Source of the DNA: Trachythela sp. YZ-2020
Taxonomy: Eukaryota; Cnidaria; Anthozoa; Malacalcyonacea; Clavulariidae
Direction: 5' to 3'
DNA: 64,000 nucleotides
Assembly: GCA_016169945.1 (NCBI GenBank)
Contig: JADLSH010000363.1
Span: 4,354,501-4,418,500 of the forward strand
In this document: piece after piece, positions 1,204 to 53,818 of the stretch
Numbering within the stretch: position 1 is the first letter of the stretch
Layout: the number at the start of each line of letters is the position of its first letter
Notes under the pieces: model-generated
What the model was told of the DNA's origin: nothing
What the model saw: only the letters and a program-made list of their open reading frames with translations
Database searches by the model: none
Translations under genes and position numbers: made by a program

Positions 1204-1208
1204 TGCAT

Positions 1209-10670: not shown

Positions 10671-13600
10671 ATGATAGACTCAGTTAAAGATTATTTAGCG
10701 CCAAAGACATTCAGTATTCTGGCATACGTATGTTCGATTGTTCATTTTCTTTGTGGCCTGGTATTTACAGGTATTGTTATTGCTTTAAAAGAAGGAGAGG
10801 CTGGGAAATTTACTTGTAATGTCGCGCCTGAAAGTACGGCGACATACAAGATACAAGTCGACAAAGCATGTTACTCAAGATACCAAAGAAATTACAATTC
10901 TCCACTGCCATTTTATGGATTTGTCATACAGAGTATTTGGTTCCCAATTATTGTCGCTGTTGTCTATTCTCTCGGGGTACGAAGTCGTGTTGAGGAAGTC
11001 GATTCGAGTAATGAACCACAAACTGAAGGCGAAGCAGAGAATCAGGTACGAAACAGAGGAACTTTTTATGTTTTTTATTGCTATTTTTCTCACCTTGCTA
11101 TCCGTTTTCTATCTGGGATACTGTTTACTACCCTACAGTATGCAGTGTTCTTTCCAAGTGATTTTGACTTCGAGTTTAGCTGTACTTTGCCACCAACAGG
11201 GTTTATGTCCAAGATAGTAAAGAATGCAAGTGTCAGTCAATTGAATAGTACATTTATTACATGTGAGAATTCGACTGCATCTGAGAAAAGATTGTGGTCG
11301 GTCATCGTATGTGTATTAAACACAGGGTTTGCCTTGATAATGCTTGCGGAAGTGATTCGTCTTTGCCGACGATTTCCAAACTGCAAATGTAGAGTTGGTT
11401 GGAGTTGTGATAGAGAGTTCATTATTGTCTATTTGTTACGAAAGCGATATAGCCGTATTGATCTTCAGTTAACAAACTTGCAGGAATGTATAGACTCTTA
11501 CAAAAGACAAGTTTTGCTCCCTTCTCGTATGTCTGATGTACTTTATGGAACAAAAACTGACTTAGATAAGTTGTATATTAATCTTGTTATTCATACTGAA
11601 CGAGCTCCGCACAAGTTTTCAAAAAACATGGAACGTCATGAAATATTTGATGTTTATATGACAGTTCCCCAACACTCTATACGTCTAGAAGAGGTAAAGG
11701 ATTTATTTTATCCCAACAAAGATACAAACGGCAATTCTCCTCGCAAGATTCTGGTGGTTGGTCGTCCCGGCATAGGAAAAACTGTCTTGACCGTAAAAAT
11801 TATGTGTGATTGGGCTAAAGGAATTGATGAATACTATCCTGGCAAGATTGCCTTTTTTTTTAAATTTAGATGGTTCAATTTGAACCAATTGAAGAACATA
11901 ACTCTTAAGACGTTTCTTTGTTATGGAACAGGTGAATTGAGCAATGAAGAATTTGAAAAAATTTATGAAGATATCATGAAAGAGCCAGAGAAAGCAATTC
12001 TCATTTTTGATGGTTTGGATGAATTTAATGGCAACTTAGACTGCTTAGACGACTTACCACGTCCAAATGATCCCAATAGTTGCATGTCTGGAATTTCCTT
12101 GTTTAAGAAACTGATTTCTGATCGTTTATTGCCAGGAGCAACGGTTCTAGTAACCAGTAGACCAACTGCAAGTGAGTTTTACTCCAGTTTGAATTTTGAT
12201 CGAACTGTTGAGATTATTGGTTTTACCTCAGATAAAATTGAAGAGTATGTCAGCAGATTTTGTGACAATCATAACAGAAGTGATCTAAAAGTAGATGAAA
12301 TCAAACAAAAGATGTGGAACCACATAAAATCCTCATCAGACTTGCTAAATTTATGTTACATTCCAGTAAATTGCTTTATCGTTTCTGTTATCCTATTTGA
12401 ATGTCTCAGTGATCCTATAAATGAGACCGGTGCTCTTCCAACAACACTGACTGAACTTTACCAGGCAGCCATAGATCATTTTGATAAACATCGCTTTAGA
12501 ACATTAAACGGTGAGTCTTCTGAAGAAGCAATCAAGAAACTTGAATTATTGGCATACAATGGAATTGAACATGGGCAGCTGATTTTCAATAACGAATTAT
12601 TTGATGAAGAAATGAAAAGGTCTGGTTTGTTGAACAGTTTATCTAACCCTTTTTTCCCAATTCAAACACAATTCTGTTTCATTCATTTAACTATACAAGA
12701 ATTTCTTGCTGCAAAACACATGATTGAGACATTTGCTCCAGAAGAAATAAAGGAGTTTATTACCTTTCATATTGAAAGTGGTAAATGGCAGTTAGTGCTT
12801 CAGTTTATTGCTGGCATTTTGGGCAAGAAAATGAAGATGTTTAAAAGAAACTACTACAAGGATTGTGTTTTGGCATTTACAAAAAGGTTCATTGTTGAAA
12901 ATGGTCTACTTCAACTTGCAGATTATTGTTTATTGTTTGTAATTAAATGTTTGAGAGAAGTGGGCATGAAGACATTGTTAAAGAAGCTTGTGAAAAAACT
13001 GCTATGAATGATGTCGTGAGTCTACATTTTTCAAGATTGACATCAAGTGACTGCGCAGCAGTGACTTTTGTTTGCAAACACATGAAGAAATTAACGAAAT
13101 TAGATTTGGAGCTATTTAACTCGAATGAAGAATGCTATCTAGAACTTGTTAAATTGCTACAACAAAGATGCATAGAACAAGTGGTGTTAAGTGTGTCAAT
13201 GAGCAGACATTCCAGTCACCGCTTGACAGCAGAGCCTCTTTTTAGAGCATTAATGAACTCAAAGTGTACATTGAACCACAAACACAGTAAGCTTACCGAG
13301 TTAAAACTTGAAGATTTATTCATAACCAATGAAAGTTTATCGATCATGTGTGAGTTATTTAAAAACGGGCATGCAAGTTGTCTTGAAAGATTATACCTAT
13401 GTGATGGTAGAATGGGTTCACTTGGAATATCCATACTTTGTCAAGTCCTTGACAATACATTTTGTCCTGAACTTACATATCTTGGTCTAAGTGAAATTCA
13501 ATATAAGGGTGTAAGAGTGTTGTGTAATACTCTTATTGAACATAAGCTATTTAAGCTTACTGAGCTGGATCTTGGTGCGTGTTTGTTAACTGGTGAATGT

Positions 13601-14128
13601 ATAACTTTGCTGTGTGAGCTACTCAGAGATGAACATTGCAAACTGACTGATTTGTCACTCGCATGTAATAAAGATATGAGGAAAGGTGATGGTTTACGTA
13701 TGTTGTGTGAAAATGCTTTAACAAAGGAGCATTGTAAACTTGCAAAGTTGGACCTGTCTAAATGTTCACTAACAGATCAATGTATATCCGAGCTATGTAA
13801 GGCATTGCAAGATGAACATTGCAAACTGACTAATTTGTCACTAGCATCTAATATAGGTATAGGTGATGAAGGTTTACGTATGTTGTGTGAATATGCTTTA
13901 ACAAACGAGCATTGTAAACTTGCGAAGTTGGTCCTGTCTTGTTGTTCATTAACAGATCAATGTATACCAGAGTTATGTAAGGCATTGCAAGATGAACATT
14001 GTGTGCTTAATGAATTGTGGCTACAGGACAATGAGTTTACTGAGGAAGGCAAGAAGTCACTTCTTGAAATAGAAACACATACAGTTTGTAAAGCTAGAGG
14101 TTTGAAACTTATATTATTATATAAATAG
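10671..14128 (+). pseudogene. NLR copy 1: four-TM + NACHT + LRR protein, one frameshift
   Basis: Frame 1 runs 10671-13007 (778 codons) and the LRR part continues in another frame to 14128. Against NLR copy 2, one base is missing at about 12961-12966. Predicted domains: TM1 ~14-39, an extracellular loop with C49 and C67, TM2 ~81-103, a polar loop, TM3 ~133-162, a second loop with C171, C198 and N-glycosylation sequons, TM4 ~208-231, and a cysteine-rich juxtamembrane stretch. Next come a linker and a NACHT with P-loop GRPGIGKT (364-371), Walker B LIFDGLDE (~444-451) and a TVLVTSRP sensor (~491-498). NLRs sense infection or damage and oligomerise through NACHT. The 778-residue product would lack LRRs. 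The frameshift could be an assembly error; otherwise this is a pseudogene or a truncated NACHT channel-like protein. Intronless. Confidence 0.8.
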
Positions 14129-19160: not shown

Positions 19161-20025
19161 TTGGCTAAATGTATTGGAATACTTAAGAAATATATATTAT
19201 TCCCGAGGCTCGGCGAGGGTACTAATTCCGCTCGGATATTTACACCACGTATGTGATCGAGGACGTAGCGGCCTGGCGAAACCAAAAGTCGTACGCCGCG
19301 ATGCCATTAACGGTTTTTCTACGTTATACGCATACGCGAGTTTATATCGAGCTAAACTAGTAACTGGCCTCTTCATGATTGGCGACGGCAAAACTTTTGT
19401 TTTTAATTTGTACATCAGCATTTGGCTTCCTAATTCAGTGCTTTTTGGAAAGTGGAACATTTATGATTTCGGTTCATATTCTCACCGACTGAACAAAAAG
19501 TATCAGACTTATTATTGAAATGAATACCTTAATATTTGGTATTATTAATGAAAATCTGCCGGTGCTATCTATAGTAAACATGGTGTCCCATATTTTGGCT
19601 TTATACTCATTTGACTCGAGAGAGACGCCCATGAGGCCCATGCGGTTCTATTTTGGCGGTCTAAAATTATATGAAAACTTTGGAACGTCTTTGTTGCCAT
19701 ATTAATTGCAAAATAACTGAATAATAACTTTGAAGAACATTTATTGAATTGAATGGAATGGAATGGAATTGAATTGAATTGAGTTGAATTGAATTGAATT
19801 GAATTGAATTGAATTGAATTGAATTGAAGACTTAACTAAGGCTAATAAACAAGAGAAATAAAGAGTTTTATTCATTTTTAGATAATCATTTTTACATAGT
19901 TCTATTAATAAAATTTTCTTATTTTTTTTTTCGTTTATATGATGACTATAATACACTACTCGCCAAACTAGATTACGTTTTCGATCATCATAACATAACA
20001 AAAATACAACTTACTTTAAACGTTA
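19161..20025. other. Foldback core, left part
   Basis: No supported gene. ~19200-19245 is similar to 8225-8280 (unidentified dispersed repeat). A (GAATT)n/(GGAAT)n simple repeat is at 19741-19826. An open frame that continues out of the satellite to 19518 has no recognisable domain. Confidence 0.5.
19741..19826. repeat. GAATT pentanucleotide repeat
   Basis: About sixteen 5-bp units of GAATT, with three GGAAT variants near the start. Similar AAATTCAAATTC tails occur at the 3' end of the LINE just downstream, so it may be the tail of an older LINE on the other strand. Confidence 0.85.
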
Positions 20026-22945
20026 TATTAGTTGGCTTGTATTTATCCGAAAATTATGATTCGAGAATCCGTGGTGATTTGTGTTTTGAAAACGAAGAAA
20101 TAGCGGAGTCTTTATTTATTGAAATAAATAATTCTATCGGTAAGAATATTATTGTAGGGGTAATTTATAGACCTCCTAACCAAGATGTTACCAGTTTTTT
20201 GACTAATTATAATGAATTGCTTAGTAAAATTACAAAGGAAAATAAGACTTGTTACATAATGGGGGATTTTAATTTAAACTTGTTAAGCTTCCAGCAACAC
20301 TCGCTGACCGGCGAGTTTTTGGAGCAAATGTACTCCAACTCAATCTTTCCTTTGATACTTCGTCCCCAGAGCTTCGTCCCTCAAGAATAACTTCTCATTC
20401 GGCTACACTAATTGATAATATATTTACCAATCAATTGCATAGCAATATGAAAAGTGGCTTGTTGTTTACTGATATTTCGGATCATCTTCCAATTTTTTGT
20501 ATTTGCTTTGAAAATAATCAGACAGTAAATAAGAAAAATGAATCAATCACTATTCGAGAAAAAAACGAGTATAATTTAAATAAGTTTAGTGAGCAATTGT
20601 CCAGGGTTAATTGGTCAGAACTTGAAGGTTTTAATGATCCAAATCAGTCATATAAGGCCTTCCATTCTGAATTTACTAAAATATATAACACGTGTTTTCC
20701 AGTTAAGCATATAAAGAGAAAACATAATTTTTCATGTAATCCATGGTTGTCAAAAGGAATTTTAAAATCCATAAAAAGAAAAAATAAATTATATAGACGT
20801 TACTTACGTAACCCTACACCTGAAAACGATTCGTATTACAAAAGATACAAGAACAAACTGAATCATTCAATAAAGATTGCCAAATCATCATACTACGCTA
20901 GTAAATTGCAAAATATGAAATCTGACATGAAATCTACTTGGAAGGTTCTCAATGAGGTTATTAATAAAAAGAAATCAAAGCCTACCATAAGTCCATTATT
21001 TAAAACGAATGATAATGATAATGAGATCTCTGATCCAATTTTAATTGCCAATAAATTTTGCAACTATTTCACTAATATTGGCCCAAATCTTGCTAAGAAA
21101 ATAAAACCTTCTCAGTCACATCGTTTGTTTCTTTCTGGATGTTATTCTCAATCTGTTTTTCTTGATAGTGTGACCTCCGCTGAAATTGTTGAAATTGCTA
21201 AATCGTTTCACCCAAATAAATCTGCTGGTTATGATAAAATTCCTATGTCAATAATTAAACAGTTTATTAATATCATTGCAGAACCACTTTCTCATATACT
21301 TAATTTGTCCATTGCTAGTGGCATTGTCCTGATGATATGAAAATTGCATGTGTAATTCCTTATTTAAAGCAGGTGATCGTGCAATATTCTCAAATTATAG
21401 ACCAGTATCTATACTTCCATGTTTTTCAAAGTTTCTTGAAAGGGCTATGTATAATCGTTTATTGGCATATCTCGATAAATTTAAGATATTATATGATAAT
21501 CAATATGGATTTCGCAAAAATCATTCAACTTCACTTGCTTTGATCGATTTATATGACAAGATTTCAGATGCGATTGACAGAAAAGAAACTTCTGTGGGGA
21601 TTTTCCTGGATTTATCTAAAGCCTTTGATACTGTCAATCATGAGATTCTATTTGATAAGTTGGAACATTACGGAATTCGCGGCTTGCCATTGCAATGGAT
21701 AAAAAGTTATTTTACCAATAGAACCCAATTTGTTCAATTTAATGAACATCGCTCATCTCCTAGTGCTGTTTGTTGCGGGGTGCCTCAGGGTTCTATCCTT
21801 GGCCCTTTATTCTTTTTACTTTATATTAATGATATTTGCAATGTGTCACAATTAGTTGAAACAATTTTATTTGCTGATGATACAAACATTTTCTTTTCAC
21901 ATAAAGACCCGCAATATGTGATCGATTCTTTGAATAATGAATTGGAAAAACTGTCTGATTGGTTTCAAGCAAATAAATTGTCGCTTAATACGGAAAAAAC
22001 GAAATTTATGGTATTTAAACCTAGACAAAAAAATTCTGTTTGGACATAAAACTATTTATTAATAATAAGTGTATTGAACAAGTTAAGGAAACTGTGTTTT
22101 TGGGAGTTATTCTGGATGAAAATCTGAGTTGGAAATCTCATTTCTCCCATATTGCTAATAAAATATCAAAATCTATTGGTATAATTTATAAAGCTAGTTT
22201 CTGTTTGCCACTAGAGTCTCTACGTACATTGTACTATTCGATTATTTATCCTTACCTACAATATTGTGTTATTGTTTGGGGACTAACGTATCCTACTAAT
22301 ATTCGTCGCATTGAATTACTTCAGAAACGTATAATTAGAATACTGAATAAAAGCGCATTCGATGCACATACTAGCCCTATATTTAAGAAGCTTGGCTTAT
22401 TAAAACTGAATGATATTTGTATGCTACAACTTGGTCAATTTATGTTTCATCATAAATTTTCTCTTTTACCTGAACGATTTGATAACATGTTTTTAAAAAA
22501 TGATCAAATTCACACTTTTAATACAAGAAACTCCTCCAAGTATCATGTACCTTCATGTAGGACAAATATCAGACAATTTTCGGTGCGCTTTCAAGGTCCA
22601 AAATTTTTTAACTCTCTTCCTCGTGAGCTGGTTGACATTGTGTCCTCTATTTTATTTAAGAGAAAACTAAAACAATATTTGTGTTCAATGTATTAATAAT
22701 TATGATGTAAAATTTTAGTTTGTAAACTGAAGCACGTCTGCATTTCATAATTTATTAGACCTAATTGTGTTTTTATATATATATGGTGTATATTTAAAGG
22801 GAGCCTAAATTTATATAAGCCTCGTGGTTTCGTTTTGGGCTTCCTTGTCACCAACATGATAAAATTCTAATTTTTTGTATATTTGTTGTGTTGTAATCTT
22901 TATGTAATGTGGTGCTAAATCAAATAAATTCAAATTCAAAAAAAA
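20026..22945 (+). mobile_element. 5'-truncated, frameshifted non-LTR retrotransposon (Jockey/CR1/L2 group)
   Basis: Four open blocks in changing frames (20037-20390, 20435-21340, 21348-22049, 22040-22696) together spell one LINE polyprotein. The first block is an APE-type endonuclease segment (VGVIYRPPN, YIMGDFNLNL), followed by SDHLPIF in the second block. The reverse transcriptase has SKAFDTVNH, CGVPQGSILGPL and the catalytic FADDTN. The C-terminus ends with a GPKFFNSLP phrase typical of this group. The 5' part of the endonuclease is missing. The 3' end has TAAATTCAAATTCAAA repeats at ~22922-22945. Shifts lie near 20390, 21335 and 22035, so the copy is dead. It is inserted in the core of the foldback element. 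Confidence 0.9.
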
Positions 22946-25805: not shown

Positions 25806-28800
25806 ACCATAGAACCATAGAACCATAGAACCATAGAACTATAGAACCATAGAACCATAGAACCATAGAACCATAGAACCATAGAACTATAGAACCATAG
25901 AACCATAGAACCATAGAACCATAGAACTATAGAACTATAGAACCATAGAACCATAGAACCATAGAACCATAGAACCATAGAACCATAGAACTATAGAACC
26001 ATAGAACCATAGAACCATAGAACCATAGAACTATAGAACCATAGAACCATAGAACTATAGAACCATAGAACCATAGAACCATAGAACCATAGAACCATAG
26101 AACCATAGAACCATAGAACCATAGAACCATAGAACCATAGAACCATAGAACCATAGAACCATAGAACCATAGAACCATAGAACCATAGAACCATAGAACC
26201 ATAGAACCATAGAACCATAGAACCATAGAACTATAGAACCATAGAACCATAGAACCATAGAACCATAGAACCATAGAACCATAGAACCATAGAACCATAG
26301 AACCATAGAACCATAGAACCATAGAACCATAGAACTACAGAACCATAGAACCATAGAACCATAGAACCATAGAACCATAGAACTATAGAACTATAGAACC
26401 ATAGAACCATAGAACCATAGAACCATAGAACCATAGAACTATAGAACTATAGAACCATAGAACCATAGAACCATAGAACCATAGAACCATAGAACCATAG
26501 AACAATAGAACCATAGAACCTTAGAACCATAGAACCATAGAACCATAGAACCATAGAACCATAGAACCATAGAACTACAGAACCATAGAACCACAGAACC
26601 ACAGAACCATAGAACTATAGAACCATAGAACCATAGAACCATAGAACCATAGAACCATAGAACCATAGAACCATAGAACCATAGAACCATAGAACCATAG
26701 AACCATAGAACTACAGAACCATAGAACCATAGAACCATAGAACCATAGAACCATAGAACCATAGAACCATAGAACTATAGAACCATAGAACTACAGAACC
26801 ATAGAACCATAGAACCATAGAACTATAGAACTATAGAACCATAGAACCATAGAACCATAGAACCATAGAACCATAGAACCATAGAACCATAGAACTATAG
26901 AACCATAGAACCATAGAACCATAGAACCATAGAACCATAGAACCATAGAACCATAGAACCATAGAACCATAGAACTACAGAACCATAGAACCATAGAACC
27001 ATAGAACCATAGAACTATAGAACTATAGAACCATAGAACCATAGAACCATAGAACCATAGAACCATAGAACCATAGAACTATAGAACTATAGAACCATAG
27101 AACCATAGAACCATAGAACCATAGAACCATAGAACCATAGAACAATAGAACCATAGAACCTTAGAACCATAGAACCATAGAACCATAGAACCATAGAACC
27201 ATAGAACCATAGAACCATAGAACTACAGAACCATAGAACCACAGAACCACAGAACCATAGAACCATAGAACCATAGAACCATAGAACCATAGAACCATAG
27301 AACCATAGAACCATAGAACCATAGAACCATAGAACCATAGAACCATAGAACCATAGAACCATAGAACCATAGAACCATAGAACTACAGAACCATAGAACC
27401 ACAGAACCACAGAACCATAGAACTATAGAACCATAGAACCATAGAACCATAGAACCATAGAACCATAGAACCATAGAACCATAGAACCATAGAACCATAG
27501 AACCATAGAACCATAGAACCATAGAACCATAGAACCATAGAACCATAGAACTATAGAACCATAGAACTACAGAACCATAGAACCATAGAACCATAGAACT
27601 ATAGAACTATAGAACCATAGAACCATAGAACCATAGAACCATAGAACCATAGAACCATAGAACCATAGAACTATAGAACCATAGAACCATAGAACCATAG
27701 AACCATAGAACCATAGAACCATAGAACCATAGAACCATAGAACCATAGAACCATAGAACTACAGAACCATAGAACCATAGAACCATAGAACCATAGAACC
27801 ATAGAACTATAGAACTATAGAACCATAGAACCATAGAACCATAGAACCATAGAACCATAGAACCATAGAACCATAGAACTATAGAACCATAGAACCATAG
27901 AACCATAGAACCATAGAACCATAGAACCATAGAACCATAGAACCATAGAACCATAGAACCATAGAACCATAGAACCATAGAACCATAGAACCATAGAACC
28001 ATAGAACCATAGAACTACAGAACCATAGAACCACAGAACCACAGAACCATAGAACCATAGAACCATAGAACCATAGAACCATAGAACCATAGAACCATAG
28101 AACCATAGAACCATAGAACCATAGAACTACAGAACCATAGAACCATAGAACCATAGAACCATAGAACCATAGAACCATAGAACCATAGAACTATAGAACC
28201 ATAGAACCATAGAACTACAGAACCATAGAACCATAGAACCATAGAACTATAGAACTATAGAACTATAGAACCATAGAACCATAGAACCATAGAACCATAG
28301 AACCATAGAACTATAGAACCATGGAACCATAGAACCATAGAACCACAGAACCACAGAACCATAGAACCATAGAACTATAGAACTATAGAACCATAGAACC
28401 ATAGAACCATAGAACCATAGAACTATAGAACCATAGAACCATAGAACCATAGAACCATAGAACCATAGAACCATAGAACCATAGAACTATAGAACTATAG
28501 AACCATAGAACCATAGAACCATAGAACCATAGAACTATAGAACCATAGAACTACAGAACTACAGAACTACAGAACCATAGAACCATAGAACCATAGAACT
28601 ATAGAACCATAGAACCATAGAACCATAGAACCATAGAACCATAGAACCATGGAACCATAGAACTACAGAACCATAGAACCATAGAACCATAGAACCATAG
28701 AACCATAGAACCATAGAACCATAGAACCATAGAACCATAGAACCATAGAACCATAGAACCATAGAACTATAGAACCATAGAACCATAGAACCATAGAACC

Positions 28801-31800
28801 ATAGAACTATAGAACCATAGAACCATAGAACCATAGAACCATAGAACTATAGAACCATAGAACCTTAGAACCATAGAACCATAGAACCATAGAACCATAG
28901 AACCATAGAACTACAGAACCATAGAACCACAGAACCACAGAACCATAGAACTATAGAACCATAGAACCATAGAACCATAGAACCATAGAACCATAGAACC
29001 ATAGAACCATAGAACTATAGAACCATAGAACCATAGAACCATAGAACCATAGAACCATAGAACCATAGAAACATAGAACCATAGAACCATAGAACCATAG
29101 AACCATAGAACCATAGAACCATAGAACCATAGAACTATAGAACCATAGAACCATAGAACCATAGAACCATAGAACCATAGAACCATAGAACCATAGAACC
29201 ATAGAACCATAGAACCATAGAACCATAGAACCATAGAACCATAGAACCATAGAACCATAGAACCATAGAACCATAGAACCATAGAACTACAGAACCATAG
29301 AACCATAGAACTATAGAACCATAGAACCATAGAACTATAGAACTATAGAACCATAGAACCATAGAACCATAGAACCATAGAACCATAGAACCATAGAACT
29401 ATAGAACTATAGAACCATAGAACCATAGAACCATAGAACCATAGAACCATAGAACCATAGAACAATAGAACCATAGAACCTTAGAACCATAGAACCATAG
29501 AACCATAGAACCATAGAACCATAGAACTACAGAACCATAGAACCACAGAACCACAGAACCATAGAACTATAGAACCATAGAACCATAGAACCATAGAACC
29601 ATAGAACCATAGAACCATAGAACCATAGAACCATAGAACCATAGAACCATAGAACCATAGAACCATAGAACCATAGAACCATAGAACCATAGAACTATAG
29701 AACCATAGAACTACAGAACCATAGAACCATAGAACCATAGAACTATAGAACTATAGAACCATAGAACCATAGAACCATAGAACCATAGAACCATAGAACC
29801 ATAGAACCATAGAACTATAGAACCATAGAACCATAGAACCATAGAACCATAGAACCATAGAACCATAGAACCATAGAACCATAGAACCATAGAACTACAG
29901 AACCATAGAACCATAGAACCATAGAACCATAGAACCATAGAACTATAGAACTATAGAACAATAGAACCATAGAACCTTAGAACCATAGAACCATAGAACC
30001 ATAGAACTATAGAACTATAGAACCATAGAACCATAGAACCATAGAACCATAGAACCATAGAACCATAGAACAAGAGAACCACAGAACCATAGAACCATAG
30101 AACCATGGAACCACAGAACCATAGAACCATAGAACCATAGAACTACAGAACCATAGAACCACAGAACCACAGAACCATAGAACCATAGAACCATAGAACC
30201 ATAGAACCATAGAACCATAGAACCATAGAACCATAGAACCATAGAACAATAGAACCATAGAACCTTAGAACCATAGAACCATAGAACCATAGAACCATAG
30301 AACCATAGAACCATAGAACTACAGAACCATGAACCACAGAACCACAGAACCATAGAACTAGAACCATAGAACCATAGAACCATGAACCATGGAACCATAG
30401 AACCATAGAACCATAGAACCATAGAACCATAGAACCATAGAACCATAGAACCATAGAACCATAGAACTACAGAACCATAGAACCATAGAACCATAGAACC
30501 ATAGAACCATAGAACCATAGAACCATAGAACTATAGAACCATAGAACTACAGAACCATAGAACCATAGAACCATAGAACTATAGAACTATAGAACCATAG
30601 AACCATAGAACCATAGAACCATAGAACCATAGAACCATAGAACCATAGAACCATAGAACAATAGAACCATAGAACCTTAGAACCATAGAACCATAGAACC
30701 ATAGAACCATAGAACCATAGAACCATAGAACTACAGAACCATAGAACCACAGAACCACAGAACCATAGAACTATAGAACCATAGAACCATAGAACCATAG
30801 AACCATAGAACCATAGAACCATAGAACCATAGAACCATAGAACCATAGAACCATAGAACCATAGAACCATAGAACCATAGAACTACAGAACCATAGAACC
30901 ATAGAACCATAGAACCATAGAACCATAGAACCATAGAACTATAGAACCATAGAACTACAGAACCATAGAACCATAGAACCATAGAACTATAGAACTATAG
31001 AACCATAGAACCATAGAACCATAGAACCAGAACCAGAACCATAGAACCATAGAACCATAGAACTATAGAACCATAGAACCATAGAACCATAGAACCATAG
31101 AACCATAGAACCATAGAACCATAGAACCATAGAACCATAGAACCATAGAACAATAGAACCATAGAACCTTAGAACCATAGAACCATAGAACCATAGAACC
31201 ATAGAACCATAGAACCATAGAACTACAGAACCATAGAACCACAGAACCACAGAACCATAGAACTATAGAACCATAGAACCATAGAACCATAGAACCATAG
31301 AACCATAGAACCATAGAACCATAGAACCATAGAACCATAGAACCATAGAACCATAGAACTACAGAACCATAGAACCATAGAACCATAGAACCATAGAACC
31401 ATAGAACCATAGAACTATAGAACCATAGAACTACAGAACCATAGAACCATAGAACCATAGAACCATAGAACCATAGAACCATAGAACCATAGAACCATAG
31501 AACCATAGAACTATAGAACTATAGAACCATAGAACCATAGAACCATAGAACCATAGAACCATAGAACCATAGAACAATAGAACCATAGAACCTTAGAACC
31601 ATAGAACCATAGAACCATAGAACCATAGAACCATAGAACCATAGAACCATAGAACCATAGAACTACAGAACCATAGAACCACAGAACCACAGAACCATAG
31701 AACCATAGAACCATAGAACCATAGAACCATAGAACCATAGAACCATAGAACCATAGAACCATAGAACCATAGAACCATAGAACTACAGAACCATAGAACC

Positions 31801-34800
31801 ATAGAACCATAGAACCATAGAACCATAGAACCATAGAACTATAGAACCATAGAACTATAGAACCATAGAACCATAGAACCATAGAACCATAGAACCATAG
31901 AACCATAGAACCATAGAACCATAGAACCATAGAACTATAGAACTATAGAACCATAGAACCATAGAACCATAGAACCATAGAACCATAGAACCATAGAACA
32001 ATAGAACCATAGAACCATAGAACCATAGAACCATAGAACCATAGAACCATAGAACCATAGAACCATAGAACCATAGAACCATAGAACTACAGAACCATAG
32101 AACCACAGAACCACAGAACCATAGAACCATAGAACCATAGAACCATAGAACCATAGAACCATAGAACCATAGAACCATAGAACCATAGAACCATAGAACT
32201 ACAGAACCATAGAACCATAGAACCATAGAACCATAGAACCATAGAACCATAGAACCATAGAACTATAGAACCATAGAACCATAGAACTACAGAACCATAG
32301 AACCATAGAACCATAGAACTATAGAACCATAGAACTATAGAACCATAGAACCATAGAACCATAGAACCATAGAACTATAGAACCATAGAACCTTAGAACC
32401 ATAGAACCATAGAACCATAGAACCATAGAACCATAGAACTACAGAACCATAGAACCACAGAACCACAGAACCATAGAACTATAGAACCATAGAACCATAG
32501 AACCATAGAACCATAGAACCATAGAACCATAGAACCATAGAACCATAGAACCATAGAACCATAGAACCATAGAACCATAGAACCATAGAACCATAGAACC
32601 ATAGAACCCTAGAACCATAGAACCATGGCCAGAACCATAGAACCATAGAACCATAGAACCATAGAACCATAGAACCATAGAACCATAGAACCATAGAACC
32701 ATAGAACTATAGAACCATAGAACCATAGAACCATAGAACCATAGAACCATAGAACCATAGAACCATAGAACCATAGAACCATAGAACCATAGAACTACAG
32801 AACCATAGAACCAAAGAACCATGAACCATAGTACCATAGAACCATAGAACCATAGAACCATAGAACTATAGAACTATAGAACCATAGAACCATAGAACCA
32901 TAGAACCATAGAACCATAGAACCATAGAACCATAGAACCATAGAACCATAGAACAATAGAACCATAGAACCATAGAACCATAGAACCATAGAACCATAGA
33001 ACCATAGAACCATAGAACTACAGAACCATAGAACCACAGAACCACAGAACCATAGAACTATAGAACCATAGAACCATAGAACTACAGAACCATAGAACCA
33101 TAGAACCATAGAACCATAGAACCATAGAACTATAGAACTATAGAACCATAGAACCATAGAACCATAGAACCATAGAACCATAGAACCATAGAACCATAGA
33201 ACCATAGAACCATAGAACCATAGAACCATAGAACCATAGAACCATAGAACCATAGAACCATAGAACCATAGAACCATAGAACTATAGAACCATAGAACCA
33301 TAGAACTATAGAACCATAGAACCATAGAACCATAGAACCATAGAACCATAGAACGATAGAACCATAGAACCATAGAACCATAGAACCATAGAACCATAGA
33401 ACCATAGAACCAGAACCATAGAACCGCCAGAACCATAGAACTACAGAACCAGAACCATAGAACCATAGAACCATAGAACCATAGAACCATAGAACTATAG
33501 AACTATAGAACCATAGAACCATAGAACCATAGAAACCATAGAACCATAGAACCATACAACCATCGAACCATAGAACCATAGAACAATAGAACCATAGAAC
33601 CATAGAACCATAGAACCATAGAACCATAGAACCATAGAACCATAGAACCATAGAACTACAGAACCATAGAACCACAGAACCACAGAACCACAGAACTATA
33701 GAACCATAGAACCATAGAACCATAGAACCATAGAACCATAGAACCATAGAACCATAGAACCATAGAACCATAGAACCATAGAACCATAGAACTACAGAAC
33801 CATAGAACCATAGAACCATAGAACCATAGAACCATAGAACCATGGGAACTATAGAACCATAGAACTACAGAACCATAGAACCATAGAACTATAGAACTAT
33901 AGAACCATAGAACCATAGAACCATAGAACCATAGAACCATAGAACCATAGAACCATAGAACCATAGAACCATAGAACCATAGAACCATAGAACCATAGAA
34001 CCATAGAACCATAGAACCATAGAACTATAGAACCATAGAACCATAGAACCATAGAACCATAGAACCATAGAACCATAGAACCATAGAACTATAGAACCAT
34101 AGAACCATAGAACCATAGAACCATAGAACCATAGAACCATAGAACCATAGAACCAGAGAACCATAGAACCATAGAACCATTGAACCATAGAACTACAGAA
34201 CCATAGAACCATAGAACCATAGAACCATAGAACCATAGAACTATAGAACTATAGAACCATAGAACCATAGAACCATAGAACCATAGAACCATAGAACCAT
34301 AGAACTATAGAACTATAGAACCATAGAACCATAGAACAATAGAACCATAGAACCATAGAACCATAGAACAATAGAACCATAGAACCTTAGAACCATAGAA
34401 CCATAGAACCATAGAACCATAGAACCATAGAACCATAGAACTACAGAACCATAGAACCACAGAACCACAGAACCATAGAACTATAGAACCATAGAACCAT
34501 AGAACCATAGAACTATAGAACCATAGAACCATAGAACCATAGAACCATAGAACCATAGAACCATAGAACCATAGAACTACAGAACCATAGAACCATAGAA
34601 CCATAGAACCATAGAACCATGAACTATAGAACTATAGAACCATAGAACCATAGAACCATAGAACCATAGAACCATGGGAACCATAGAACTATAGAACCAT
34701 AGAACCATAGAACCATAGAACCATAGAACCATAGAACCATAGAACCATAGAACAATAGAACCATAGAACCATAGAACCATAGAACCATAGAACCATAGAA

Positions 34801-37800
34801 CCATATAGAACCAGAACCATAGAACCATAGAACCATAGAACTACAGAACCATAGAACCACAGAACCACAGAACCATAGAACCATAGAACCATGGGAACAA
34901 TAGAACCATAGAACCTTAGAACCATGGAACCATAGAACCATAGAACTATAGAACCAGAACCATACAGAACCATAGAACTACAGAACCATAGAACCACAGA
35001 ACCACAGAACCATAGAAACCATAGAACCATAGAACCATAGAACCATAGAACCTAGGAACCATAGAACCATAGAACCACAGAACCATAGAACCAGGAACCA
35101 TAGAACCATAGAACCATAGAACCATAGAACCATAGAACTATAGAACTATAGAACAATAGAACCATAGAACCACAGAACCATAGAACCATAGAACCATAGA
35201 ACTATAGAACTATAGAACCATAGAACCATAGAACCATAGAACCAAAGAACCAAAGAACCAAAGAAACATAGAAAAAAAGAACAATAGAACCTTAGAACCA
35301 TGAACCATAGAACCATAGAACCATAGAACCATAGAACCATAGAACCATAGAACTGGAACTACAGAACCACAGAACCATAGAACCACAGAACCATAGAACC
35401 ATAGAACCATAGAACCATAGAACCATAGAACCATAGAACCATAGAACCATAGAACTATAGAAAACCTTAGAACCATAGAACCATAGAACCATAGAACCAT
35501 AGAACCATAGAACCATAGAACCATAGAACCATAGAACCACAGAACCACAGAACCATAGAACTATAGAACCATAGAACCATAGAACCATAGAACCATAGAA
35601 CCATAGAACCATAGAACCATAGAACCATAGAACCATAGAACCATAGAACCATAGAACTACAGAACCATAGAACCACAGAACCATAGAACCATAGAACCAT
35701 AGAACTATAGAACCATGGAAACTATAGAACCATAGAACCATAGAACCATAGAACCATAGAACCATAGAACCATAGAACCATAGAACCATAGAACCATAGA
35801 ACCATAGGAACCATAGAACTATAGAACCATAGAACCATAGAACCATAGAACCATAGAACCATAGAACCATAGAACCATAGAACCATAGAACTATAGAACT
35901 ACAGAACCATAGAACCATAGAACCATAGAACCATAGAACCATAGAACCATAGAACCATAGAACCAGAACCATAGAACCATAGAACCATAGAACCATAGAA
36001 CCATAGAACCAGAACCATAGAACCATAGAACTACAGAACCATAGAACCATAGAACCATAGAACCATAGAACCATAGAACCATAGAACTATAGAACCATAG
36101 AACTACAGAACCATAGAACCATAGAACCATAGAACTATGGGAACCATAGAACCATAGAACTATAGAACCATAGAACCATAGAACCATAGAACCATAGAAC
36201 CATAGAACTATAGAACCATAGAACCATAGAACCATAGAACCATAGAACCATAGAACCATAGAACCATAGAACCATAGAACTATAGAACCATAGAACCATA
36301 GAACCAGAACCATGAACCATAGAACCATAGAACCATAGAACCATAGAACTACAGAACCATAGAACCACAGAACCACAGAACCATAGAACTATAGAACCAT
36401 AGAACCATAGAACCATAGAACCATAGAACCATAGAACCATAGAACCATAGAACCATAGAACCATAGAACCATAGAACCTACAGAACCATAGAACCATAGA
36501 ACCATAGAACCATAGAACCATAGAACCATAGAACCATAGAACATAGAACCATAGAACTATAGAACCATGAACCATAGAACCATAGAACTAGAACCATATA
36601 GAACCATAGAACCATAGAACCATAGAACCATAGAACCATAGAACCATAGAACCATAGAACCATAGAACCATAGAACCATAGAACCATAGAACCATAGAAC
36701 CATGGAACCAAAGAACCATAGAACCATAGAACCATAGAACCATAGAACCATAGAACCATAGAACCATAGAACCATAGAACCATAGAACCATAGAACCATA
36801 GAACCATAGAACTACAGAACTATAGAACCACAGAACCACCACTACATAGAACCATAGAACCATAGAACCATAGAACCATGGAACCATGGAACCATAGAAC
36901 CATAGAACCATAGAACCATAGAACCATAGAACCATAGAACCATAGAACCATGGAACCATAGAACCATAGAACCATAGAACTATAGAACCATGAACCATAG
37001 AACTAGAACCATAGAACCATAGAACCATAGAACCATAGAACCATAGAACTACAGAACCATGGGAACCATGAACCATAGAACCATAGAACCATAGAACCAT
37101 AGAACCATGGAACCATAGAACCATAGAACCACAGAACCATAGAACCATAGAACCATAGAACCATGGAACTATAGAACCATGGAACCATGGAACCATAGAA
37201 CCACAGAACCATAGAACCATAGAACCATAGAACCATAGAACCATAGAACCATAGAACCATAGAACCATAGAACCATAGAACCATAGAACTGAACAGAACC
37301 ATAGAACCACAGAACCATAGAACCATAGAACCAGAACTATAGAACCATAGAACCAGAACCATAGAACCAGGAACCATACGGGAACCATGAACCATGGAAC
37401 TACAGAACCATAGAACCATAGAAACCATAACCATAGAACCATACCATACCATAGAACCATAGAACCATAACCATAGAACCATAGAACCATAGAACCATAG
37501 AACCATAGAACTAGAACCATAGAACCATAGAACCATGGAACCATAGAACCATAGAACCATGAACCATAGAACCATAGAACCGCCAGAACCATAGAACCAT
37601 AGAACCATAGAACCATAGAACTATAGAACCATAGAACCATAGAACCATAGAACCATGAACCATAGAACCATAGAACCATAGAACCATGAACTATAGAACC
37701 ATAGAACCATAGAACCATAGAACCATAGAACCATAGAACCATAGAACCATAGAACCATAGAACCATGAGACCAGAACCATAGAACCATAGAACCATAGAA

Positions 37801-40541
37801 CCATAGAACCATAGAACCATAGAACCATAGAACCATAGAACCATAGAACTAGAACCATAGAACCATAGAACCATAGAACCATAGAACTATAGAACCATAG
37901 AACCATGAAACCATAGAACCATAGAACCACAGAACCATAGAACCATAGAACCATAGAACCATAGAACCAGGAACCATAGAACCATAGAACCATGAACCAG
38001 AACCATAGAACCATAGAACCAGAACCATAGAACCATGAACCATAGAACCATAGAACCATAGAACCATAGAACCATAGAACCATAGAACTATAGAACCATA
38101 GAACCATAGAACCATAGAACCATAGAACCATAGAACCATAGAACCATAGAACCATAGAACAATAGAACCATAGAACCATAGAACCATAGAACCATGGGAA
38201 CCATAGAACCATAGAACCATAGAACTATAGAACCATAGAACCAGAACCATAGAACTATAGAAACCATAGAACCATAGAACCATAGAACCATAGAACCTAT
38301 AGAACCATAGAACCATAGAACCATAGAACCATAGAACCATAGAACCATAGAACCATAGAACCAGAACCATAGAACCATGAACCATAGAACCATAGAACCA
38401 TAGAACCATAGAACCATAGAACCATAGAACCATAGAACCATAGAACCATAGAACCATAGAACCATAGAACTATAGAACCATAGAACCATAGAACCATGGG
38501 AACCATAGAACCATAGAACCATAGATCCATAGAACCATAGAACCATAGAACCATAGAACCATAGAACCATAGAACCATAGAACCATGAACTATAGAACCA
38601 TAGAACCATAGAACCATAGAACCATAGAACCATAGAACCATAGAACCATGGAACCACAGAACCATAGAACTACAGAACCATAGAACCATAGAACCATGAA
38701 CCATAGAACCATAGAACTATAGAACCATGGAACCATAGAACCATAGAACCATAGAACCATAGAACCATAGAACCATGGAACTATAGAACCATAGAACCAT
38801 AGAACCATAGAACCATAGAACCATAGAACCATGGAACCATAGAACCATAGAACCATAGAACCATAGAACCATAGAACCATGAACCATAGAACCATAGAAC
38901 CATGAACCATAGAACTATAGAACCATAGAACCATAGAACCATGGAACCATAGAACCATAGAACCATAGAACCATAGAACCATAGAACCATAGAACCATAG
39001 AACCATAGAACCATAGAACCATGGGAACCATAGAACCATGGAACCATGAACCAGAACCATAGAACCATAGAACCATAGAACCATGGAACTATAGAACCAT
39101 AGAACCACAGAACCATAGAACCATGAAACCATAGAACTACAGAACCATAGAACCATGAACCATAGAACCATAGAACCATAGAACCATAGAACCATAGAAC
39201 CATAGAACCATAGAACCATAGAACCATAGAACCATAGAACCATAGAACCATAGAACCATAGAACCATAGAACCATGGAACCATAGAACTAGAACCAGAAC
39301 CATAGAACCATAGAACCATAGAACCATAGAACCATAGAACTATAGAACCATAGAACCATAGAACCATAGAACCATAGAACCAGAACCATAGAACCATAGA
39401 ACCATAGAACCATAGAACCATAGAACCATGGAACCATAGAACCATAGAACCATAGAACCATAGAACCATAGAACCATAGAACTACAGAACCATAGAACCA
39501 TAGGAACCATAGAACCATAGAACTATAGAACCATAGAACCATAGAACCATAGAACCATAGAACCATAGAACCATAGAACCATAGAACTATAGAACCATAG
39601 AACCATAGAACCATAGAACTATAGAACCATAGAACCATGGAACCATAGAACCATAGAACCATAGAACTATAGAACCCTAGAACCATAGAACCATAGAACC
39701 ATAGAACCATAGAACCACAGAACTATAGAACCACAGAACCACAGAACCATGGGAACTATAGAACCATAGAACCATAGAACCATAGAACCATGAGAACCAT
39801 AGAACCATAGAACCATAGAACCATGGAACTATGAACCATGAACCATAGAACCATAGAACCATAGAACCATAGAACCATAGAACCATGGAACCATAGAACT
39901 ATAGAACTATAGAACCATAGAACCATAGAACAATAGAACTATAGAACCATAGAACAAAAGAACCATAGAACCAAAGAACCACAGAACCATAGAACCATAG
40001 AACTATAGAACCATAGAACCATAGAACCATAGAACTACATAGAACCATAGAACCATAGAACCATAGAACCATGAACTGAACCAGAACCATGGGAACTATA
40101 GAACCATAGAACCTTAGAACCATAGAACTATAGAACCATAGAACCATAGAACCATAGAACTATAGAACCATAGAACCATAGAACCATAGAACCATAGAAC
40201 CATAGAACCATAGAACCATAGAACCATAGAACTACAGAACCATAGAACCATAGAACCATAGAACCATCGAACCATAGAACTATAGAACTATAGAACCATA
40301 GAACTACAGAACCATAGAACCATAGAACTATAGAACCATAGAACCATAGAACTATAGAACCATAGAACCATAGAACCATAGAACCATAGAACCATAGAAC
40401 CATAGAACTATAGAACCATAGAACCATAGAACCATAGAACCATAGAACCATAGAACTATAGAACTATAGAACTATAGAACTATAGAACTATAGAACTATA
40501 GAACTATAGAACTATAGAACTATAGAACTATAGAACTATAG
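25806..40541 (-). repeat. Right octanucleotide satellite array (CCATAGAA)n
   Basis: About 1,800 units, the reverse complement of the left array. Unit phase is strict from 25806 to ~30330. After that, units with 1-6 bp changes appear (CCAGAA, CCATGAACC, CCATGGGAACC) and become dense between ~33400 and 40100. The last ~90 bp are uniform CTATAGAA, mirroring the outer end of the left array. Higher-order blocks recur: CTACAGAACCATAGAACCAC cassettes at ~26573, 27221, 27381, 28013, 29526 and further on, often preceded by AACAATAGAACCATAGAACC then TTAG (26501, 27141, 29461). The minus strand is open in all frames as MVLWFYGS repeats; these are not genes. Confidence 0.97.
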
Positions 40542-50161: not shown

Positions 50162-53100
50162 ATGATAGACGCAGTTAAGGATTATTTAACGCCAAAGACA
50201 TTCAGTATTCTGGCATACGTATGTTCGATTGTTCATTTTCTTTGTGGCCTGGTATTTACAGGTATTGTTATTGCTTTAAAAGAAGGAGAGGCTGGGAAAT
50301 TTACTTGTAATGTCGCGCCTGAAAGTACGGCGACATACAAGATACAAGTCGACAAAGCATGTTACTCAAGATACCAAAGGAATTACAATTCTCCACTGCC
50401 ATTTTATGGCTTTGTCATACAGAGTATTTGGTTCCCAATTATTGTCGCTGTTGTCTATTCTCTCGGGGTACGAAGTCGTGTTGAGGAAATCGATTCAAGT
50501 AATGAACCACAAACTGAAGGCGAAGCAGAGAATCAGGTACGGAACAGAGGAACTTTTTATGTTTTTTATTGCTATTTTTCTCACCTTGCTATCCGTTTTC
50601 TATCTGGGATACTGTTTACTACCCTACAGTATGCAGTGTTCTTTCCAAGTGATTTTGACTTCGAGTTTAGCTGTACTTTGCCACCAACAGGGTTTATGTC
50701 CAAGATAGGAAAGAATGCAAGTGTCAGTCAATTGAATAGTACATTTATTACATGTGAGAATTCGACTGCATCTGAGAAAAGATTGTGGTCGGTCATCGTA
50801 TGTGTATTAAACACAGGTTTTGCCTTGATAATGCTTGCGGAAGTGATTCGTCTTTGCCGACGATTTCCAAACTGCAAATGTAGAGTTGGTTGGAGTTGTG
50901 ATAGAGAGTTCATTATTGTCTATTTGTTACGAAAGCGATGTAGCCGTATTGATCTTCAGTTAACAAATTTGCAAGAATGTGTAGACTTTTACAAAAGACA
51001 AATTTTGCTGCCTTCTCCTATATCTGACGTAATTTATGGAACAAAAACTGGTTTTGATGAGTTGTATATAAACCTTGTTATTCATACTGAACGAGCTCCA
51101 CACAAGTTTTCAAAGAACATGAAACGTCATGAAATGTTTGATGTTTATATGGAAGTTCCAGAACACTCTAGATCTCTAAAAGAGTTAAAAGATCTATTTT
51201 ATCCCAACAAAGATACAAACGACAAGGTTCCTCACAAGATTCTGGCGGTTGGTCGTCCCGGAATAGGAAAAACTGTCTTGACTGAAAAAATTATGCGTGA
51301 TTGGGCTAATGGAATTGATGAATATTATTGTGGCAAGATTGCCTTCTATTTTAAATTTAGATGGTTTAATCCCAAAGAATTGGATAACATAACTCTTAAG
51401 ACATTTCTTCGTTATGGAACAGGATTGCGCGATCAGAAATTTGAAAGAATTTATGAAGATATAACAAAAGAGCCAGGAAAAGCCATTCTTATTTTTGATG
51501 GTTTGGATGAATTTAATGGCCATGTGGAATGCTTAGACCACTTACAACCTCCAAACGATCCTAGTATTTGCATGTCTGGAATTTCATTGTTTATTAAACT
51601 GATTTCTGGACACTTATTGCAAGGGGCAACAGTTCTAGTAACGAGCAGGCCAACTGCAAGTGAGTTTTACTTGAGGCTTAAATGTGATAGAACTGTTGAG
51701 ATTATTGGTTTCACCTCAGATAAAATTGAAGAGTATGTCAGCAGATTTTGTAACAATAATAAGAGAAGTGATCTAAAAACAAAGATATGGAACCATATAA
51801 ATTCCACGTCAGACTTGTTAAATTTATGTTACATTCCGGTAAATTGCTCTATCGTTTCTGTTATCCTATTTGAATGTCTCGATGATCCTAGAAATGAGAC
51901 CGGTGCTCTTCCAACGACACTGAGTGAACTTTATCAGGCAGCCGTAGATCATTTTGATAAGCATCACTATAGAACATTACATGTTGAATCTTTTGAAGAA
52001 GCAATCAAGAAACTTCAATTATTGGCATACAATGGCATTGAACATGGGCAACTCATTTTCAATAACGAATTATTTGATGAAGAAATGAAAAAGTCTGGTT
52101 TGTTGAACAGTTTATCTAACCCTCTTTTCCCAATTCAAACACAATTCTGTTTCATTCATTTAACTATACAAGAATTTCTTGCTGCAAAACATGTGACTGA
52201 GACATTCGCTCCAGAAGAAATAAAGGAGTTTATCACCACTCATATTGAAAGTGGTAAGTGGCAGTTAGTGCTTCAGTTTATTGCTGGCATTTTGGGCATG
52301 AAAATGAAGATGTTTAAAAGAAACTACTACAAGGATTGTGTTTTGGCATTTACCAAAAGGTTCATTGTTGAGTATGGTCTACTTGAACTAGGAGATTTTA
52401 GAATTAATTATACTCAGTATAGTTTATTGTTTGTATTGAAGTGTTTGAGAGAAGTGGAAGATGAAGAAATTGTTAAAGAAGCTTGTGAAACAACTGCTAT
52501 GAATGATGTTGTGAGACTAAGTATTGGGACAATGTCAAATTATGAGTTGACGTCAAGTGACTGCACGGCAGTGACATTTGTTTGCAAACACATGAAGAAA
52601 TTGACGAAATTAGATTTCAGCCTTACCAGTGAAGAATGTTATCCGGAACTTATTAAATTGCTACAACAAAGATGCATAGAACAATTTAAGGTTTCTAGCG
52701 TTCTTCAATTATATAGCTTCTCAACAGCAGAGCCTCTTTTTAGAGCATTGATGAACTCAAAGTGTACATTGAACCACAAACACAGTAAGCTTACCGAGTT
52801 AGAACTTTCTGATGTAGTCATAACCAATGAAAGTTTATCGATCATGTGTGAGTTATTTAAAAACGGGCATGCAAGTTGTCTTGAAACATTATACCTACGG
52901 AATGGTAAAATGAGTTCACATGAAATATACATACTTTCTCAAGTCCTTGACAATACATTTTGTCCTGAACTTACATGTCTGAATCTTGGTTCTAATGAAA
53001 TTCGTGATGATGGTGTAATAGAGTTGTGTAATACTCTTATTAAGCATAAGCTATTTAAGCTTACTAAGCTGAGTCTTGGTAGGTGTTTGTTAACTTATCA

Positions 53101-53818
53101 ATGTGTAACTTTTCTGTGTGAGCTACTCAGAGATAAACATTGCAAACTGACTGTTTTGGTACTCTCATGGAATGAAAGTATACGTGATGAAGGTTTACGT
53201 ATGTTGTGTGAACATGCTTTAACAAACGAGCATTGTAAACTTGCGAAGTTGGAGTTGGTTCAATGTTCATTAACAGATCAATGTATACCCGAGCTATGTA
53301 AAGCATTGCAAGATGAACGTTGCAAACTGACTGATTTGTCACTCGCACGTAATGAAGGTATAACTGATGACGGTTTACGTATGTTGTGTGAGAATGCTCT
53401 AACAAACGAGCATTGTAAACTTGCGAAGTTGGAGTTGGGTGAATGTTTATTAACAGATCAATGTATACCCGAGCTATGTAAAGCATTGCAAGATGAACGT
53501 TGCAAACTGACTGATTTATCACTCGCTGCACGTAATGAAGGTATAACTGATGACGGTTTACGTATGTTGTGTGAGAATGCTCTAACAAACGAGCATTGCA
53601 AACTTGCGAAGTTGGACCTGTCTTGGTGTTCATTAACAGATCAATGTATACCCGAGCTATGTAAGGCATTGCAAGATGAACATTGTGTGCTTAATGAATT
53701 GTGGCTATGTTCCTATAAGTTTACTGAGGAAGGCAAGAGATCACTTCTTGAAATCGAAAGACACAGAGTTTGTAGAGCTAGAGGTTTGAGAATTAGCAGT
53801 AATTATAGTAGACATTGA
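50162..53818 (+). CDS. NLR copy 2: four-pass membrane module + NACHT + LRR receptor
   Basis: This encodes 1218 residues in one exon. The ATG at 50162 matches the start of NLR copy 1; the open frame extends to 50066 but that part is unrelated. Domains: TM1 ~14-39, loop 1 with C49/C67, TM2 ~81-103 beginning FYGFV, cytosolic loop, TM3 ~133-162, loop 2 with C171/C198 and three N-glycosylation sequons, TM4 ~208-231, and a cysteine-rich stretch to ~246. The NACHT has GRPGIGKT (364-371), LIFDGLDE (~443) and LVTSRPTA (~492). A helical region follows to ~780, then LRRs of the C-K-L-x-x-L-x-L type to the end. Four TMs with two cysteines per outer loop resemble innexin/pannexin, and LRRC8 channels also join such a pore to LRRs; homology is not shown. 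Likely a membrane-anchored innate sensor, possibly channel-forming. Confidence 0.85.
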   Translation: MIDAVKDYLTPKTFSILAYVCSIVHFLCGLVFTGIVIALKEGEAGKFTCNVAPESTATYKIQVDKACYSRYQRNYNSPLPFYGFVIQSIWFPIIVAVVYSLGVRSRVEEIDSSNEPQTEGEAENQVRNRGTFYVFYCYFSHLAIRFLSGILFTTLQYAVFFPSDFDFEFSCTLPPTGFMSKIGKNASVSQLNSTFITCENSTASEKRLWSVIVCVLNTGFALIMLAEVIRLCRRFPNCKCRVGWSCDREFIIVYLLRKRCSRIDLQLTNLQECVDFYKRQILLPSPISDVIYGTKTGFDELYINLVIHTERAPHKFSKNMKRHEMFDVYMEVPEHSRSLKELKDLFYPNKDTNDKVPHKILAVGRPGIGKTVLTEKIMRDWANGIDEYYCGKIAFYFKFRWFNPKELDNITLKTFLRYGTGLRDQKFERIYEDITKEPGKAILIFDGLDEFNGHVECLDHLQPPNDPSICMSGISLFIKLISGHLLQGATVLVTSRPTASEFYLRLKCDRTVEIIGFTSDKIEEYVSRFCNNNKRSDLKTKIWNHINSTSDLLNLCYIPVNCSIVSVILFECLDDPRNETGALPTTLSELYQAAVDHFDKHHYRTLHVESFEEAIKKLQLLAYNGIEHGQLIFNNELFDEEMKKSGLLNSLSNPLFPIQTQFCFIHLTIQEFLAAKHVTETFAPEEIKEFITTHIESGKWQLVLQFIAGILGMKMKMFKRNYYKDCVLAFTKRFIVEYGLLELGDFRINYTQYSLLFVLKCLREVEDEEIVKEACETTAMNDVVRLSIGTMSNYELTSSDCTAVTFVCKHMKKLTKLDFSLTSEECYPELIKLLQQRCIEQFKVSSVLQLYSFSTAEPLFRALMNSKCTLNHKHSKLTELELSDVVITNESLSIMCELFKNGHASCLETLYLRNGKMSSHEIYILSQVLDNTFCPELTCLNLGSNEIRDDGVIELCNTLIKHKLFKLTKLSLGRCLLTYQCVTFLCELLRDKHCKLTVLVLSWNESIRDEGLRMLCEHALTNEHCKLAKLELVQCSLTDQCIPELCKALQDERCKLTDLSLARNEGITDDGLRMLCENALTNEHCKLAKLELGECLLTDQCIPELCKALQDERCKLTDLSLAARNEGITDDGLRMLCENALTNEHCKLAKLDLSWCSLTDQCIPELCKALQDEHCVLNELWLCSYKFTEEGKRSLLEIERHRVCRARGLRISSNYSRH
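53109..53700 (+). repeat. 180-bp LRR-pair tandem units in NLR copy 2
   Basis: A 60-codon unit (two LRRs, starting ELCKALQDE) repeats with start points near 53291, 53471 and 53653. The last interval is 183 bp through an added alanine codon. Neighbouring units differ at few sites. Copy 1 has fewer units (phrases near 13790 and 13970). Confidence 0.88.

Follow-up and report, generated by a model that had tools for sequence, protein, structure and literature searches.

A predicted connexin-related large-pore module at the N-terminus of NACHT-LRR proteins in octocorals

Analysis of a 64,000 nucleotide stretch of the octocoral Trachythela sp. YZ-2020 (GenBank assembly GCA_016169945.1, contig JADLSH010000363.1, positions 4,354,501 to 4,418,500, forward strand; hereafter the window) identified a gene at 50162-53818 that encodes a NACHT and leucine-rich repeat (LRR) receptor of the NLR type, preceded by a module with four transmembrane (TM) segments. 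It is very likely that this module, as modelled, has the large-pore fold of connexins, pannexins, and LRRC8. Its closest relatives in sequence are the connexins, yet it is not a canonical connexin, having 2+2 rather than 3+3 outer cysteines. On balance, the protein is probably a membrane NLR in which the N-terminal effector would be a connexin-related large-pore channel subunit, forming a non-junctional pore that is gated or assembled by NACHT.

The window gene is read from an ATG at 50162; a further in-frame ATG is present 5′ of this at 50066, and the family consensus start is equivalent to 50162, not 50066. A Kyte-Doolittle scan with a 19-residue window gave hydrophobic peaks at residues 20-38, 85-103, 134-160, and 211-229, which bears out the four hydrophobic segments ahead of NACHT described in the initial annotation of this sequence. 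Beyond residue 300 only one stretch, starting at 551-555, exceeds a hydropathy of 1.6, and this we take to be buried NLR core. The two cysteines in each outer loop and the loop-2 sequons noted earlier were also confirmed, as were the complete NACHT motifs and LRRs: the Walker A motif at 364 reads GRPGIGKT, the Walker B motif at 442 reads ILIFDGLDE, and TSRP is at 494, with Pfam matches to NACHT (5.3e-21) and LRR_6 (3.5e-15) and a sub-threshold match to NLRC4_HD2 (1.8e-5). With a NACHT domain containing both Walker motifs, and LRRs at the C-terminus, the protein is an NLR by composition, and this part of it matches NLRP3 chains among Protein Data Bank (PDB) sequences (E 5.2e-43). The features of the gene are as follows.

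50162..53818, + strand: NLR gene with connexin-like module, a single open reading frame (ORF) of 1218 codons plus stop
50162..50206, + strand: N-terminal segment, residues 1-15, with a short helix (2-8) of low confidence in the AlphaFold2 model; predicted to be cytosolic or pore-facing, its side of the membrane being presumed
50207..50299, + strand: TM1 helix, residues 16-46, from the AlphaFold2 model and hydropathy
50300..50401, + strand: outer loop 1, residues 47-80, with a strand at 47-49, a helix at 57-75, and cysteines C49 and C67
50402..50497, + strand: TM2 helix, residues 81-112, starting with FYGFV (residues 81-85), from the AlphaFold2 model and hydropathy
50528..50641, + strand: TM3 helix, residues 123-160, from the AlphaFold2 model and hydropathy
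50642..50764, + strand: outer loop 2, residues 161-201, with beta strands at 168-173 and 194-200, cysteines C171 and C198, and sequons at N185, N192, and N200
50765..50863, + strand: TM4 helix, residues 202-234, from the AlphaFold2 model and hydropathy
50864..51232, + strand: cytosolic linker, residues 235-357, with the D.EF..VYLL.KR segment past TM4; low model confidence
51239..51757, + strand: NACHT domain, Pfam residues 360-532, containing Walker A and Walker B
52157..52480, + strand: HD2-like helical region, residues 666-773, under the Pfam cut-off
52841..53806, + strand: LRRs of ribonuclease-inhibitor/NLRP type, residues 894-1215, from the Pfam and PDB matches
53131-53685: 180-bp tandem repeat, 3.1 copies, inside the LRR region

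The membrane module is not confined to this gene. Searching the source assembly (578,087,698 bases) with the 279-residue module gave 63 matches, including the window copy, some of them in tandem arrays on contigs C258, C135, C55, and C189. Twenty of the 63 places, and four more, were retrieved for sequence analysis. The paralogues form two clades, the window copy being 23-27% identical to clade B. In clade A, the TM module, NACHT, and LRR are mostly within one ORF. In clade B, the TM module and NACHT share an ORF of 700-831 codons, with LRR ORFs downstream at loci L019, L020, and L030; at L030 (3846-6827, contig C148) the TM module runs across two frames and is followed by frames matching NACHT (5.6e-18) and LRR (7.3e-14). 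In P0240, a clade B protein with a named gene model, all three parts (module, NACHT, and LRRs) are on one chain. The earlier description of one uninterrupted exon holds, as an ORF, for the window copy but does not extend to the paralogues that split the module or the LRRs into separate ORFs. A misreading of two adjacent genes as one was rejected, since a single ORF is present in the window copy and in other copies. Within the C258 array, L031 and L032 have modules that are 96% identical and frames that break within or ahead of NACHT, which may be due either to true decay or to an error in assembly.

Homologues are also abundant in protein databases. Three database searches returned 238 (search 1, E<=0.01), 102 (search 2, E<=1, all listed), and 207 proteins (search 3, E<=1), with a precomputed NACHT domain in 120 of the 120 listed for search 1 and 119 of the 120 listed for search 3. 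Organism names were present on 12 rows among the matches listed, and all were Dendronephthya gigantea or Paramuricea clavata (Octocorallia). In both species named gene models bear the module and NACHT together, annotated as NLRP-like, uncharacterized, or hypothetical. A lone oddity or gene-model artefact was rejected in view of the 63 genome matches, the three database sets, and these named models. The initial scope of a single gene was thus too small: there is a large family with tandem arrays, there are named gene models in two octocorals, and a related module stands ahead of a kinase-RNase exon, as described below.

The outer loops have features that are conserved across the family. In 287 near-full-length modules, drawn from 339 proteins with 52 dropped, the four outer cysteine columns are occupied at 0.997, 1.0, 0.997, and 1.0, and no other cysteine column exceeds 90%. 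Of the 287, 282 have a sequon in the interval bounded by the two loop-2 cysteines, against 60.5% in residue shuffles of the loop-2 region, so that the excess is enrichment within an N/S/T-rich loop; loop 1 has a sequon in 8 of the 287. The loop-2 pattern fits a topology in which NACHT is on the inner side of the membrane and loop 2 on the outer (or lumenal) side, and the sequons lean towards a non-junctional channel. The D.EF..VYLL.KR segment that follows TM4 is conserved in both clades and, we presume, resembles the tails of innexins and LRRC8. Between diverged clade A pairs (dS >0.5), the ratio of non-synonymous to synonymous substitution (dN/dS) in the TM module is about 0.18-0.45, many of these pairs having a dS near saturation.

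Assignment of the fold is based on two AlphaFold2 models, one for each of the two divergent clades, built only from family sequences. With Foldseek, all 50 of the 50 matches listed for both models were connexin, pannexin, or LRRC8 (of 353 and 312 matches, respectively, at E<=10). Both models show the arrangement that characterizes large-pore channels, namely four TM helices and, in each outer loop, beta strands. The module model matches the Cx26 and Cx46 structures, and that of clade B matches LRRC8 and pannexin besides connexin, its residues 9..283 aligning to residues 17..409 of LRRC8 chain 8b42_F, past TM4. Innexin and CALHM were not among the Foldseek matches listed; longer match lists may hold them. 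An unrelated fold, which would have undone the original proposal of an NLR joined to a four-pass channel-like module, was not what the models gave. At the level of prediction that proposal stands, but the nearest sequence relatives are connexins rather than the innexins, pannexins, or LRRC8 with which the module had been compared.

The relationship to connexins was seen by several profile methods. Precomputed matches to the Pfam Connexin family (PF00029) are present in 7 of the 120 proteins listed for search 1, 9 of the 102 of search 2, and 0 of the 120 listed for search 3. Direct Pfam searches matched Connexin in 8 of 8 proteins of one set, 7 of which had been picked for their precomputed PF00029, and only one of the 8 (P0006, 32.8 bits) is above the curated cut-off of 31.3 bits. 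In less selected sets, matches were found in 19 of 36 modules (set A1; E<=0.01, best 7.8e-8), in 20 of 40 (E<=0.1, best 6.9e-9), and, among 10 modules of clade B, in one (8.9e-5). Set A1 comprises 37 sequences chosen from 121 at <80% identity, less P0028 (omitted for a long repeat), with the window piece replacing P0001. Against PDB sequences, a profile of 22 modules (set A2: the two window copies and 20 retrieved places from the 63, picked to span identities and so non-random) gave 32 matches at E<=10 (best E 0.01), of which 27 are connexin chains, many being variant forms of a single protein. Where shown, the connexin alignments are colinear, and the profile match runs from TM1 to TM4. The 32 matches include no chain of LRRC8, pannexin, or innexin.

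In profile-profile comparison with hhalign, the module profile aligned to a profile of Cx26, Cx32, Cx43, and a Cx46 fragment at 96.5% (E 8.4e-10), with a score of 69.9, compared with a maximum of 34.5 (39.8%) in 160 column shuffles and 24.7 for the reversed profile; these controls argue against a chance match. The same four-connexin profile gave 94.0% with clade A, 94.5% with clade B, 84.9% with set A5 (40 of the 102 proteins of search 2; over TM2-TM4), and 91.2% with the 287-module profile. Compared as single sequences with set A2, Cx43 reached 90.1%, Cx46 85.3%, Cx26 60.4%, and Cx32 54.4%; PANX1 and LRRC8A, likewise only as single sequences, reached 0.9% and 3.9%, and at most 1.0% with each clade alone. 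The four-TM controls CD9 and claudin-1 gave 0.4% and 0.2%. By the same measure nothing was seen between the four-connexin profile and PANX1 (0.2%) or LRRC8A (0.1%). Innexin was rejected as the nearest sequence family, based on that result with the single PANX1 sequence and on the absence of innexin among the Pfam families listed for several module sets (in one set, 25 of 32 listed). The connexin alignment shows three conserved cysteines per outer loop and the 287 modules show two; with the third absent from each loop, the module cannot be filed as a connexin.

A number of results weigh against this interpretation. Pfam Connexin is not matched by the window protein itself at E<=1, nor by its 300-residue piece at E<=0.01; among PDB sequences, the sole match of the window module alone was a capsid (E 1.3). 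With the clade A profile alone, a connexin (0.72) came after three rhodopsins (0.07-0.11), and with that of clade B alone there was no match at E<=10. Single connexins gave 21-57% with clade A and 15-52% with clade B, some of these alignments being short, and with the 287-module profile the value for Cx26 as a single sequence is no more than 5.0%, compared with 8.2% for LRRC8A. Some modules have weak matches to unrelated Pfam families (UPF0182 in 8 of 36, DUF4064 in 4 of 10). In addition, the TM-module dN/dS of recent pairs spans 0.22 to 1.06, and several copies in the family are frame-broken. The modest E-values of single searches and the weak match of each clade alone to PDB sequences could mean that the connexin likeness is chance or convergence among four-TM proteins, and the fold call a model artefact; connexins were included in the training of AlphaFold2. 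However, two clades about 23-27% identical give one fold family and each matches the connexin profile, a match that is seen neither with shuffles nor with other four-TM proteins, making this explanation highly improbable.

One locus joins a related module to a different cytosolic part. At L029 (4226-6440, contig C334), a module ORF (4226-5008; module-profile matches 5e-13 and 6.7e-17) has only a sub-threshold Pfam match to MFS_4, with no Connexin, and the downstream ORF matches Pkinase (1.9e-35) and Ribonuc_2-5A (1.4e-18), the KEN domain. A candidate phase-1 intron of 175 bases (4962-5136) with GT/AG ends lies between them, and the two frames are in matching phase across it. It is possible, judging from the sequence, that L029 encodes a membrane kinase-RNase, similar to IRE1 or RNase L, on a connexin-like module, and this suggests that the module is portable between proteins.

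In the mechanism proposed for the window protein, the outer loops would face outside (or into the lumen), with the N-terminus and NACHT-LRR in the cytosol. The subunits would form a ring, probably of six or seven, and a ring channel is considered fairly likely. Loop-2 glycans would make gap-junction docking unlikely, and therefore the channel would be a hemichannel. The LRRs may sense a cytosolic microbial or damage ligand, upon which NACHT would exchange nucleotide and rearrange like other NLRs, and the NACHT ring would open or assemble the attached pore; gating by NACHT is evenly poised between being right and wrong. The immune output would be ion flux or ATP release, without adaptor proteins.

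The architecture at L029 is the main argument for two other explanations, since the evident effector of such a protein would be its RNase and not a pore; this favours a sensor or scaffold role for the module and counts against a channel effector. The channel fold may be a non-conducting anchor and oligomerisation scaffold, its ring clustering NACHT-LRR or kinase-KEN so that the cytosolic part signals. NACHT, kinase, and KEN domains are all activated by self-association, and the related module stands in phase ahead of the kinase and KEN exon across the candidate intron. Against this, the loop cysteines of the pore families and the loop-2 sequons have been kept, beyond the needs of a simple anchor, and this explanation is regarded as rather unlikely. 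Alternatively, the pore may be the sensor and signalling may run the other way: the module would respond to membrane stress, to ion flux, or to a ligand outside the cell, and would switch the NACHT-LRR inside. The L029 gene has the layout of IRE1, which senses through its N-terminal, lumenal part and acts through its kinase-RNase, and the conserved cysteines and glycosylation sites of the outer loops are in keeping with this. In NLRs, however, sensing is usually the task of the LRRs and the effector is usually N-terminal, and the 180-bp LRR repeat differs in copy number (2.1 and 3.1) between the two copies of the gene in the window; a sensor pore is accordingly thought unlikely.

It is also conceivable that the module is a true gap-junction protein, the receptors passing signals between adjoining cells. 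Connexins are nearest by sequence, the fold matches Cx26 and Cx46, and innexins with glycosylation sites that form gap junctions have been reported (PMC8769644), a point that tells against a non-junctional pore. The same paper states that extracellular glycosylation hinders gap-junction formation by pannexins. With the near-universal loop-2 sequon and the absence of the third cysteine of each connexin loop, a junctional role is very unlikely. A non-junctional, connexin-related pore under NACHT control is the explanation preferred here.

Compared with known systems, the module is similar to connexins in its four TMs, predicted fold, and colinear profile match, and differs in its loop cysteines, loop-2 sequons, fusion to NACHT-LRR, and octocoral host. 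With pannexins and innexins it shares a pair of cysteines in each outer loop and putative glycosylation sites in a loop (PMC8769644), and with pannexins the predicted fold, but it has no Pfam innexin match among the families listed, little hhalign similarity to PANX1, and the NACHT-LRR fusion. LRRC8, of the volume-regulated anion channel, likewise has a large-pore module followed by cytosolic LRRs, and the clade B alignment continues past TM4; here, unlike in LRRC8, NACHT lies between the module and the LRRs, the LRRs are of ribonuclease-inhibitor/NLRP type, and hhalign similarity to LRRC8A is low. NLRP3-type animal NLRs match over NACHT and LRRs, with the sub-threshold HD2, yet the N-terminus here is a four-TM channel-fold module. 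The usual N-terminal domains of animal NLRs are PYD, CARD, or similar. In plant ZAR1-type resistosomes the NLR itself forms a cation channel, the pore being a helix funnel built on activation, whereas the pore of the window protein would be a pre-folded large-pore channel domain. In 15 cnidarians NACHT has been found combined with 35 Pfam domains (PMC8260672), and the word connexin does not occur in the main text of that paper. No literature on connexin with NACHT in cnidarians was found in a search that covered neither bioRxiv preprints nor most subscription papers, and among connexin and octocoral papers no title or opening of an abstract concerns a NACHT-fused module.

The second copy of the gene in the window is a mosaic.

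10671..14128, + strand: second gene copy, with the TM-NACHT frame to 13007 and the LRR frame from 12947

A one-base frame break separates its NACHT part from the LRRs. The TM module differs very little from that of the first copy (dS 0.036), whereas the NACHT is far from that of the first copy (dS 0.236) and close to that of paralogue L010 (dS 0.052); unequal exchange or gene conversion is suggested by this pattern. The stretch separating the first and second copies contains two huge arrays of one 8-base unit in opposite orientations, at 15692-19160 (CTATGGTT) and 25806-40541 (ACCATAGA), the latter having about 1849 copies across 14.7 kb. Elsewhere in the window, 19836-22696 is a frame-broken retrotransposon of the type lacking long terminal repeats, with overlapping ORFs (RVT_1 1.1e-37, weak endonuclease match 2.4e-4). 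At 652-3954 is an ORF cluster in which one ORF matches a Pox_A32-like packaging ATPase (1.1e-7) and the three others had no Pfam match at E<=0.001; this is perhaps a Polinton-like or related viral element.

Connexins have been described as arising in early chordates, and connexins and innexins as unrelated (PMC8769644); large-pore channel families are said to have little or no evolutionary linkage (PMC9868820). A tentative possibility, and one held with some doubt, is that the origin of connexins was not a de novo event within chordates, and that octocorals retain a branch of the connexin lineage, intermediate between connexins and pannexins/LRRC8 in its cysteine pattern and the segment after TM4, which serves as the pore of one-protein immune sensor-channels and of a membrane kinase-RNase. 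If the explanation preferred here is true, an animal NLR could be its own ion or ATP channel, so that a single protein would cover all that lies between sensing and the signal at the membrane, in parallel to the plant resistosomes, and connexin-related sequences would exist outside chordates. The latter would bear on whether connexins, innexins, pannexins, and LRRC8 have a common ancestor.

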